Assembly: GCA_016788285.1 (NCBI GenBank)
Contig: JAEUSW010000196.1
Coordinates: forward strand, 1 to 43,040
DNA length: 43,040 nucleotides
Origin: Flavobacteriales bacterium
GTDB taxonomy: Bacteria; Bacteroidota; Bacteroidia; Flavobacteriales_F; PHOS-HE28
Reading direction: 5' to 3'
Under the pieces are notes generated by a model. The model ran no database searches, was not told where the DNA came from, and saw only the letters and a list, made by a program, of their open reading frames with translations. This document shows, piece by piece, positions 27,680 to 31,202 of this stretch. The stretch's first letter is position 1; each line of letters begins with the position of its first letter. The position numbers and the translations under genes were made by a program.

Positions 27680-27702
27680 GGATCCTGGGTTTGATCAGGT
27701 TC

Positions 27703-27710
27703 CGAAGATA
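27703..27710 (-). promoter_or_regulatory. Putative -7 element TATCTTCG of the esterase-like gene
   Basis: TATCTTCG lies 23 nt upstream of ATG 27679 on the minus strand. The nearest palindrome of the array is centred about 50 bp further upstream, a plausible activator distance. Confidence 0.5.
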
Positions 27711-27745
27711 GGGATGGACCTGTGTTGCTGGGGAGGCAGGGCACG

Positions 27746-28195
27746 GAAGTATGTATGGCCATACATACTTCGGATCGACGACCGCGACAACCCACCACCT
27801 CGTTCGGCACTTGGTCGCTGTTCGACTGGTGCTTCCCAGAGGTATCCGCCGCAGCGTGGGTGTTCTGTGAGCGGATGGGTCTGCGCTGGTGCTCGGGTCG
27901 ATGAGAGGGCCGGAGCGCTTCGAGCCATTGGTGGATCATCCATGACGTATGTATGGCCATACATACGTTGGCTGATGACCGGAAACCGGCTGATCCAGGT
28001 CTGAACCCCGCTATTGGTGCGGATCGGTGCGTGTCAGGCCTGCGCGATGACCGTTGTCGAACGTATGTATGGCCATACATATATCCAGGGGGCCAGAGCA
28101 GCCTCTCAGACAACATGCGCCCCCATTGCGCGCGGCTTTCAGTGGTTCGAGCAGCCCTGTTGAATGCCGGAGGGAAGTATGTATGGCCATACATA
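27746..28195. repeat. Array of four perfect AT-rich palindromes
   Basis: The 552-bp gap 27680-28231 holds no convincing gene. It contains four copies of the core TATGTATGGCCATACATA. The first is a 26-bp perfect palindrome (27746-27771), the second 24 bp (27945-27968), the third and fourth 18 bp (28064-28081 and 28178-28195). The stretches between them are 173, 95 and 96 bp, unrelated to each other by eye and GC-rich like the rest of the genome. Centres are 198, 116 and 114 bp apart. Flanks suggest two subtypes: copies 1 and 4 share GGAAG to the left, copies 2 and 3 share ACG. No further copy was found in the window. The role is unknown: operators, hairpin RNA elements or mobile palindromes are possible. 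Confidence 0.95.
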
Positions 28196-28231
28196 TGTTC
28201 GGGAGCGGCCCGGTTCCACCTCCGCCCCCCG

Positions 28232-31180
28232 TCACCGCCGGTCCAGCTCGTAGATGAGCTGCAGGTACCCCAACCGGCCCACTGCCGGTCCGCCGTACAC
28301 CAGGTACACATCGTTCGTCCACATCCGCTCCAGCCGCTCGTCATCCGGTACACGTTCGTCGAACAAGGGGACGATCCCGAACAGGTTGCTGCAACCCACC
28401 TTCACGGTCAGTCCGGGCTTCGGGAACTTCACGTTCACCTGGGCGTCCACCATGTCGTAGCTCGGAATGGCGCCGGTGAACTGCGGCGAGCCCTCGAAGG
28501 TGAAGCCCTCCACGAACTTGTAGTTGATGCCGAAGCCCAGGTCACGGCGGTCGGTCCAGGGGATCCGCAGGTCATGTCCCGTGAAGCCCACATTGAACTT
28601 GTTCAGCGGGGTGTTGAAGGCCGGGATGATCGGGTCGTCCTCGCCGGCGATCAAGCGGTTGTAGCTGTAGTTCACGCTGTAGGTCATCCGCTTGCGGTAG
28701 TAGTTCACCCCCAGGTTGCCGCCCAACGTCCGCACTGTGCTCGTGCTGTTCGCCGCCACGCGGTACACCTGGAGCTCTTGTGGGAAGCCGGTCACCTGAT
28801 CGAAGCTGCCATCGATGCCGATCAGGTAGCCGATGAAGTCCGTGTACCAGCTCGTATAGCCGCTGGCGTCCACGTAGAACTTCTCCTTCAGCGTGCCCCG
28901 ATAACCCGCCTCCACGGTCAGCACCTTCTCCGGGCGGATCCGGTCCACATTGAAGTACTCCAGCTGTTCCAGCCCCTCCAGCAGGGTGGGCGAGCTGCGG
29001 TAATCATTGAAGCTTTCGATGGTGATCAGGCTGTCGCGGCCTTCCTCGAACTGGCCTTCGATGTTGCCCAGCAGGATGGCGCGGCCCACATTGTAGTAGA
29101 GGTACTGGTCGGCCAGCGTTGGATTGCGCACCCCGCGGCTCACGCTCACCCGGACCACATGATCGGGGTTCGGCGTGTACACCGCGCTCAGGGCCGGGGA
29201 GACCTGTGGCTCGAAGTTCTGGTTCTTGTCCACCCGCACCGTCAGGGCCAGGCGCAGTTTGTCCTGGACGATCTTCTTCTCCAGGCCCGCATATCCCCCC
29301 ACTTCCCAGTTGGTGATCACGATGTCCGCCGTGTCCTTGAAGATGGTGCCCGCACTGTTGGGCCGGTACAACCGACCGTTGCCGCCCACGGTGATCTCCG
29401 CGAACCGTGGCTTGAACCGGTACTCGCCCATGGCATGGTACAGGGCCGACCGGTCGAAGAACCGCGAGCCCCCTTCGGTGAAGCGCCGTGAGCGGATCTC
29501 GTCCAGCTTGTCGTCGAACCGATCGGTGCCCACCTGGTAGGCGGGGTCGAGCTCCGTGTTGTCCGTGCGGTCGATGCTGTCGGCGACCAGCTGATGGTAC
29601 CCGCTGAACAGGGCGGTGTTGTCCGCCACGAACTGTGTCAGGTAGGCATCATAGGCCTCCTGCGTGGTGATGCCTTGTGCGATGGCCTCCGAAGGGGTCA
29701 GATATCCCGGCTGTGTGGCGTTCAGCAACGGCTTGATCCAGGTCTCCCACAGGGTGAAGTAGCGGATGTTCCATTCCGTGGTGACGCCGCTCGCCTCCTG
29801 AAGGCGAAGGCCGGTGGTGTAGATGTCGTACGTGTCACCGGCATCCTCATGGGTCACATAGCTCCGGAAGAACCAGCGCCCTTCCTGGCGGAGCTCAAGG
29901 CGGTGCTGAAAGAACTGCACGCCTTCCAGCCGGTACCGGTTGTCGCCTTGGTACACCGTGCTCCCGCGGCTGTAGTTGGTCGCGACCTGCACTTCCACGC
30001 TGTCGGTTATCCGGTAATGCAGGCTCAGGCCCGCCTTCAGGTTGTTCGTGCCATAGTCCACCAGGTCCACTTCGCGATAGCCGGGTCGAAGGAAGAGCCC
30101 GAGTCCCGGATACTGTCGTCGGCTGAACAGGGAGACGCTGAAATCATTGTTCGCGGTCACCCACTCATCACCGTAGCTGTTCACCGCGTCGTAGCGACCC
30201 GGGTTGCCCACCCCCGTCGGGCTGTTGCTGGTGGGGTCGTAGTTCTCGGCATACCAGTCCTCGGCCCGCATGGCGAAGAGGTTCAGCTTGTACGCGAAGC
30301 GGTCGCGACCCTCCTTGTTCTTGAAGACCTGGGCCCAGCGCACGGCTCCTTCAAGCAGGTCACGCTCCCCGGCCTTCGCGCTCACGCTCAACCCTGGGAA
30401 GGCCCACGGGCTCTTGGTGGTCATGTTGATCACCCCGTTGAAGGCGCCCGGACCGTAGAACGCGCTGCTCGCCCCGGCGATCACGTCCACCTTCATCACG
30501 TCCAGGTCGCTTGCCCCCAGGAAGTTGCCCAGGCTGAAGTTCAGGCCCGGGCTCTGGTTGTCCACCCCATCGATCAGCTGCAGGCTGCGCACCGGGCTGG
30601 TGCTGTTGAAACCGCGCGTGTTGATCACCTTGAAGCCGAAGCTCGCGGCCGTCATGTCCACTCCCTTCAAGGTGCCCAGGCTCTCGTAGAAATCGCCGCT
30701 CGGCGCCTCTCGGATGGCGATGATGTCCATGCTCTCCACCGTGAGCGGAGCCTGCTTCTGCTTCTCACTGATGCGGCTGCCCACCACCTCGGCCTCCTGC
30801 AGAAGCACTTGGTCCGCGCTCAGCTTGAACTTCAGCTCCTGATCGGGGCTCTTCACCTCCACCTCCAGGTCGGTGAAGCCCACGTAGCTGATCACCAGCA
30901 CGTAAGGCGGCAGCTCGTTCACCAGCAGCTCGAACCGTCCGTCAAGGTCCGTCTGGGTCACGGCCTTCGTGCCCTTCAGGGCCACGGTGGCACCGATGAG
31001 CGTCTCGCCACTGCCGGCATCGCTCACCACGCCGCGCAGCTTGAACTGCTGCGCCAGCGCGGTCAGTGGCAGCAGCAACGCCAGAAGAAGGAGCGGGCGG
31101 ACGCGCGTTGCGGTCGGTCGGAGCGGGGGCAACGGTGAACGTTCCGTTGACCGGTCGAAGCGGTGTCGGGGGAGGCGCAT
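28232..31180 (-). CDS. TonB-dependent receptor (SusC/FepA-like) with carboxypeptidase-regulatory-like N-terminus
   Basis: 982 aa from ATG 31180 (the frame upstream has only a TTG). After a rather long basic n-region comes a signal-peptide core (PLLLLALLLPLTALAQ), a carboxypeptidase-regulatory-like domain (VVSDAGSGETLIGATVALKG, DLDGRFELLVNELPPYVLVI), a plug domain (LGTLKGVDMTAASFGFKVIN, TRGFNSTSPVRSLQLIDGVD, GASSAFYGPGAFNGVINM) and a 22-strand-type barrel that ends in an aromatic/basic strand (YLQLIYELDRR). It imports a ligand across the outer membrane using TonB/ExbBD energy. No SusD partner is adjacent, so a siderophore, cofactor or peptide ligand is as likely as a glycan. Confidence 0.94.
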   Translation of the reverse strand: MRLPRHRFDRSTERSPLPPLRPTATRVRPLLLLALLLPLTALAQQFKLRGVVSDAGSGETLIGATVALKGTKAVTQTDLDGRFELLVNELPPYVLVISYVGFTDLEVEVKSPDQELKFKLSADQVLLQEAEVVGSRISEKQKQAPLTVESMDIIAIREAPSGDFYESLGTLKGVDMTAASFGFKVINTRGFNSTSPVRSLQLIDGVDNQSPGLNFSLGNFLGASDLDVMKVDVIAGASSAFYGPGAFNGVINMTTKSPWAFPGLSVSAKAGERDLLEGAVRWAQVFKNKEGRDRFAYKLNLFAMRAEDWYAENYDPTSNSPTGVGNPGRYDAVNSYGDEWVTANNDFSVSLFSRRQYPGLGLFLRPGYREVDLVDYGTNNLKAGLSLHYRITDSVEVQVATNYSRGSTVYQGDNRYRLEGVQFFQHRLELRQEGRWFFRSYVTHEDAGDTYDIYTTGLRLQEASGVTTEWNIRYFTLWETWIKPLLNATQPGYLTPSEAIAQGITTQEAYDAYLTQFVADNTALFSGYHQLVADSIDRTDNTELDPAYQVGTDRFDDKLDEIRSRRFTEGGSRFFDRSALYHAMGEYRFKPRFAEITVGGNGRLYRPNSAGTIFKDTADIVITNWEVGGYAGLEKKIVQDKLRLALTVRVDKNQNFEPQVSPALSAVYTPNPDHVVRVSVSRGVRNPTLADQYLYYNVGRAILLGNIEGQFEEGRDSLITIESFNDYRSSPTLLEGLEQLEYFNVDRIRPEKVLTVEAGYRGTLKEKFYVDASGYTSWYTDFIGYLIGIDGSFDQVTGFPQELQVYRVAANSTSTVRTLGGNLGVNYYRKRMTYSVNYSYNRLIAGEDDPIIPAFNTPLNKFNVGFTGHDLRIPWTDRRDLGFGINYKFVEGFTFEGSPQFTGAIPSYDMVDAQVNVKFPKPGLTVKVGCSNLFGIVPLFDERVPDDERLERMWTNDVYLVYGGPAVGRLGYLQLIYELDRR

Positions 31181-31194
31181 CGGTCGGGATGCGC

Positions 31195-31202
31195 ACAAGA
31201 TA
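31195..31202 (-). promoter_or_regulatory. Putative -7 element TATCTTGT of the TonB-receptor gene
   Basis: It lies 14 nt before ATG 31180 on the minus strand and supports that start over the upstream TTG at 31198. Confidence 0.4.

Follow-up and report, generated by a model that had tools for sequence, protein, structure and literature searches.

The four-copy palindrome array in the window (the whole 43,040-nt stretch of DNA analyzed here) probably is one of many dispersed binding arrays of an autoregulated, stand-alone MarR protein, and marR gene and arrays together would form a system that is patchily distributed within the genus. MarR proteins are usually seen as local repressors acting on one or few promoter operators. 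Sequence comparison reveals that, in this one genus, proteins and sites form at least five matched pairs, with nearly all sites located outside promoters. A more far-reaching model is offered tentatively, at somewhat less than even chances: a lineage gains an orphan MarR, many gaps outside promoters, frequently where genes converge, are seeded with arrays of its lineage-specific palindrome, and purifying selection then keeps these as local nucleoprotein elements. If true, this two-part system would be a MarR-based counterpart of SlmA-type dispersed-site chromosome proteins, showing rapid protein/site co-evolution.

In the window, TATGTATGGCCATACATA is present in four exact copies (starts at 27750, 27948, 28064, and 28178; span 27750-28195). 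No further match with up to three mismatches is found in the window, the chance expectation from shuffled sequence being 0.01, so the array reported in the first-pass annotation is real. All four copies are perfect palindromes, as claimed there, with the length of perfect symmetry decreasing from 26 bp (copy 1) and 24 bp (copy 2) to 18 bp (copies 3 and 4). The reported centre distances of 198, 116, and 114 bp are exact; the inter-copy lengths of 173, 95, and 96 bp are approximate, with core-to-core gaps of 180, 98, and 96 bp. Taken as 26-bp units, the sites lie at 27746-27771 (site 1, GAAGTATGTATGGCCATACATACTTC, a perfect 26-bp palindrome), 27944-27969 (site 2, GACGTATGTATGGCCATACATACGTT), 28060-28085 (site 3, AACGTATGTATGGCCATACATATATC), and 28174-28199 (site 4, GAAGTATGTATGGCCATACATATGTT), the whole array thus covering 27746-28199. 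It is intergenic (27680-28231), bordered on one side by the start of a gene for a BD-FAE/esterase-like protein (PF20434; 25907-27679, minus strand) and on the other by the end of a TonB-dependent receptor gene (Plug, beta-barrel, CarbopepD_reg_2; 28232-31198, minus strand). Nothing was found when the window was scanned for Rfam families and tRNAs. An assembly artefact, raised as a caveat at first pass, is ruled out because orthologous arrays are present in the independently assembled MAGs G026 and G008.

When the core is searched genome-wide, as had been proposed, the window's own genome (G000; 3.6 Mb in 360 contigs) yields 35 sites with up to three mismatches, organized in 12 arrays of at least two sites each, with no lone sites; a reversed control pattern has 0 matches in this genome. 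Random scattering of copies without conserved context, named earlier as an argument against a regulatory array, does not apply, as G000, G026, and G008 have arrays at conserved positions. Per species, the number of sites ranges from 2 to 38. The conserved unit is a 26-bp dyad, RAHRTATGTATGG-CCATACATAYDTY (119 copies from four species), and type-A sites share no motif beyond these 26 bp. Across 36 ortholog site pairs, identity is 100% at ±1-4 and ±6-8, 97% at ±12, and about 30-55% beyond ±16; since sites were found by core similarity, conservation of the core is partly circular, ±12 being outside the search core. Within the 119 copies, the two halves are independent at ±13 and ±5, pairing at ±10 and ±11 shows only a weak excess with A-C combinations common, and no compensatory pairing exceeds the weak excess at ±10, 11, and 13. 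Outer positions likewise vary nearly independently per half-site, so that the flank subtypes suggested for copies 1/4 and 2/3 are not supported.

Such near-independence of half-sites indicates a site for a protein dimer rather than an RNA hairpin. Folding as RNA is conceivable for a perfect palindrome, and a hairpin RNA array had been among the first-pass proposals; this reading, or that of small-RNA genes, is nevertheless highly improbable given the pairing pattern, the spacers devoid of RNA structure (mean fold z-score 0.05 in G000), the missing Rfam match, and the absence of promoters beside array sites.

The dimer binding these palindromes is very probably an orphan MarR-family protein, because of the autoregulatory placement of sites at its gene, the co-variation of operator and recognition helix, and the co-occurrence of gene and arrays. 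In G028, G006, G020, and G009, a gene about 145 codons long lies within an array and encodes a MarR-family regulator (PF01047). A genus-wide search places its homologue in the window's own genome at C41:15835-16242 (minus strand), beside a four-site array. The C41 protein contains a PF01047/PF12802 winged-helix domain (47.3 bits, cut-off 24.6), and its AlphaFold2 model (monomer, pLDDT 86.8) is MarR-like, with Foldseek matches to DNA-bound MarR (5h3r_A, TM 0.79) and SlyA (3q5f, TM 0.79). A marR homologue adjoins an array in all 14 array-bearing genomes in which marR was found, many of them with sites on both sides of the gene, and marR is the only gene found inside arrays. In 12 of the 14 homologues, among them the one in the own genome, the distance from the end of a palindrome to the ATG is about 5-20 bp. 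In most of these 12, again including the own genome, a -7-like box (Bacteroidetes -7 consensus TANNTTTG; PMC6847099) lies just downstream of the promoter palindrome, and MarR would repress its own gene from there. The site footprint fits the contact geometry of MarR-DNA structures, where the recognition helices enter successive major grooves and the wing reaches the flanking minor groove (PMC3737563). In G002 and G023, the marR promoter itself yielded no cognate site; in the upstream region of G023 marR (L078), a different perfect palindrome, GGATCGCTCGACGAGCGATCC, replaces the array palindrome.

Five palindrome types are present in the genus, although arrays of unrelated palindromes could be missed since the non-A types were first found beside marR genes. 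The types are largely exclusive to genomes with the matching MarR type, and diverged marR homologues have different palindromes around them. ATTCATGG-CCATGAAT occurs in 24 copies in G018, with a single hit in each of two other genomes; TTGCATGG-CCATGCAA in 4-18 copies in G002, G004, G013, and G023, five further genomes giving one or two hits; TTTGCTTGT-ACAAGCAAA six times in G066 and twice in G030; and TATGCATGG-CCATGCATA in G020. The recognition helix QSTVTK pairs with the ATGTATGG/ATGCATGG type, QSTITK with TTCATGG, xSTISR with TTGCATGG, and PSTITR with TTGCTTGT; the recognition-helix residues thus change in step with the operator. In the TTGCATGG lineages (arrays of G013, G002, and G023; L105-L109, L114-L119), many sites have on one side an additional conserved motif, TTGTTAAAA plus some 4-6 bp after it, which may be a second binding element or the end of an element; this motif is absent from type-A arrays.

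The MarR clade and the arrays co-occur (14/1/2/28, Fisher p = 1e-8). Exceptions are G064, with marR-like genes and no arrays, and two array genomes without a detected marR, G030 (72% complete) and G027. The single array of G027 resides in a segment that is 86.7% identical to G008, the adjacent segment reaching about 77%, from which acquisition by recombination can be deduced. This segment (L064:4530-10001) comprises the array and a TonB gene from a G008-like donor, gained by homologous recombination in a genome where no marR was detected; the imported array is a natural test of site decay. Outside the genus set, the palindrome was met once in IMG/VR, as a lone site on one contig, and a MarR relative was not met there. 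Clear relatives among GTDB-representative contigs are restricted to Flavobacteriales/Bacteroidota MAGs, apparently the same genomes as in the genus set, and no description of MarR arrays of this sort was found in the literature searched.

At most arrays, the sites are likely to have a non-promoter role. A fixed distance to promoter elements is seen at marR only: a TANNTTNG box lies within 14 nt of a site at 8 of 462 flanks, seven of these eight being marR promoters. Fourteen of 33 non-marR array loci (automatic gene calls, orthologous loci collapsed by hand) lie between convergent genes, compared to a background of 11% in the same loci (p about 3e-6 to 5e-6); about 8 of the 33 are divergent and 11 tandem. 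Array neighbours are unrelated housekeeping genes, e.g. those for IF-2, gcvP, DHODH, shikimate dehydrogenase, and thiolase, and the nearly closed carrier genomes G004 and G066 harbor only 2-3 arrays.

These data bear on a classical multi-site operator, by which MarR would control the genes beside the arrays, in the window the esterase gene, via promoter occlusion or looping. The divergent and tandem loci are compatible with such control, as are the array positions conserved among the three species and the location of site 1, which ends just upstream of the esterase -33 region. This reading is still quite unlikely, as the neighbours are functionally unrelated, many loci are convergent, and array sites are not followed by a -7 box. 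The esterase gene does have a -7-like box, TATCTTCG (27703-27710, minus strand; read from sequence against the PMC6847099 consensus), outside the array, but the box is also present as TAACTTCG at the same place in the array-less G024 and G027. Helical phasing, noted at first pass, holds for the window array (18.9, 11.0, and 10.9 turns) but is weak as a rule over 142 spacings of the family (R = 0.15, p ~0.05). Of the looping regulator proposed earlier, the regulator element is retained, with MarR as the putative regulator, but a role as looping operator of the neighbouring gene is not supported as a rule.

Relative to sister species that lack marR, the arrays are net insertions. In the tree, G024 and G027 are sisters of G000/G026/G008; their esterase/TonB gap measures about 103-106 bp, and the same gap in G000 minus the array measures 106 bp. 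When the window locus is aligned, the net difference comes to 451-453 bp, the array itself being 446 bp long. All 11 loci compared are empty sites in G024, as are 10 of 11 in G027, where DHODH is the sole exception; at some loci, the net gap is larger than the array itself. In the gcvP/mlaF gap, G004 and G020 have arrays that differ in palindrome type, and their sisters G033 and G029 have none. Close relatives without marR have empty array loci, and marR and arrays are patchy on the tree, which tentatively indicates the direction of change (gain versus loss). In G018, array units have spread by copying to unlinked loci, and copying also took place between the IF-2 and trk loci; arrays grow longer through tandem duplication (C292 of G000, C175 of G026, and G004). 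In one G018 array (L097:3685-4546), 83-bp spacers are present in both orientations with up to 100% identity, pointing to a recent inversion or inverted duplication between palindromes.

The clean gaps in sister species, the copying of units, and the one array moved by recombination agree with the mobile palindromes considered at first pass; that idea loses ground in that neither a transposase nor a target duplication was found at the arrays. A related explanation regards the arrays as selfish, REP/REPIN-like palindromic repeats with MarR in place of RAYT, or as a relic. It accounts for the net insertions and empty sites, for the copied units, and for marR genes with flanking sites on both sides, and REPs, too, favour convergent and unidirectional gaps (PMC3733652). 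It is judged unlikely, since, apart from the missing mobility features, half-sites lack hairpin-type covariation, sites stay near-invariant long after insertion, and no shared sequence could be detected among G000 spacers from different loci.

The mechanism considered here has a MarR homodimer, encoded at C41:15835-16242 in the window's own genome, bind the 26-bp sites and repress its own leader-poor promoter; at the remaining loci, by coating or bridging arrays, it would form local nucleoprotein elements in gaps that are not promoters and often are convergent. A local architectural or transcription-roadblock role of this kind has somewhat less than even chances; it is considered somewhat likelier than decoys or purely selfish elements because all loci examined have retained the contact positions. 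Decoy arrays would act as surplus sites that titrate the autorepressed MarR and so set a threshold or expression level, with location being irrelevant. An autoregulatory site combined with many non-promoter sites is what titration would look like, an auto-repressed gene in E. coli is expressed more strongly when decoys are present (PMC7505660), convergent gaps would be the least harmful places, and site number differs widely among species. Titration is yet rather doubtful here: the loss of one site out of about 36 should hardly matter, and contact positions are intact at all loci compared.

The predicted MarR resembles MarR, SlyA, and SCO3205 in fold, Pfam match, and the dimer-sized palindrome in the regulator's own promoter, and the footprint is consistent with major-groove recognition helices plus a distal minor-groove wing contact (PMC3737563). 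In contrast to these regulators, most sites belong to intergenic arrays of 2-11 copies outside promoters, which often have convergent genes on either side and occupy loci differing by lineage. SlmA, which has 24-52 sites per nucleoid (PMC3573117), and Noc offer another parallel: a regulator-family protein (TetR-like in SlmA) with dispersed chromosomal sites (SBS and NBS, respectively) outside promoters, although binding in the present case is deduced from sequence. The system differs from SlmA and Noc by its protein family, its clustered sites, a number of arrays that can be as low as two or three in a genome, its patchiness, and the lack of a known partner such as FtsZ. With REP/REPIN and RAYT, it shares palindromic extragenic repeats, a repeat-flanked marker gene, the preference for gene 3' ends, and patchiness (PMC3733652); it deviates in showing neither hairpin covariation nor an evident GTAG/CGTC tag, and the flanked gene encodes a MarR regulator instead of a transposase. 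Transcription-factor decoy sites are similar in being non-promoter sites of an autorepressed factor (PMC7505660), whereas the arrays described here are natural, inserted as arrays, and strongly conserved per locus. The sister genomes provide a natural with/without comparison. This makes it testable how a transcription factor family gains a dispersed, possibly architectural, repertoire of sites, how arrays originate in one branch, and how a recognition helix and dozens of sites change jointly.

Spacers behave differently from the sites they separate. Between species, most are near random-sequence identity, below fourfold sites and control intergenic DNA, and the array spacers of G000, G026, and G008 have diverged beyond both of these references. 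In most two-site arrays, spacer length differs by just 0-2 bp; no special spacing constraint follows from this, because control intergenic gaps keep their length about as well. The window spacers are absent from G024 and G027 and, the palindromes aside, match nothing else in five genomes, nor in phage or plasmid records, so they are not seen as copies from elsewhere or as phage or plasmid DNA. Inversion between palindromes was discarded as the cause of spacer divergence, reverse-complement alignments being no better. A CRISPR-like array was rejected likewise: spacers match no phage or plasmid, some are tandem duplicates, and marR alone was found inside arrays. Unlike other spacers, those of roughly 200 bp at the IF-2 and trk loci (L025:4462-4897, L038:4452-4887) show homology, with about 73-86% identity from species to species, and the homology extends about 100 bp past one end; these spacers may hold further function.
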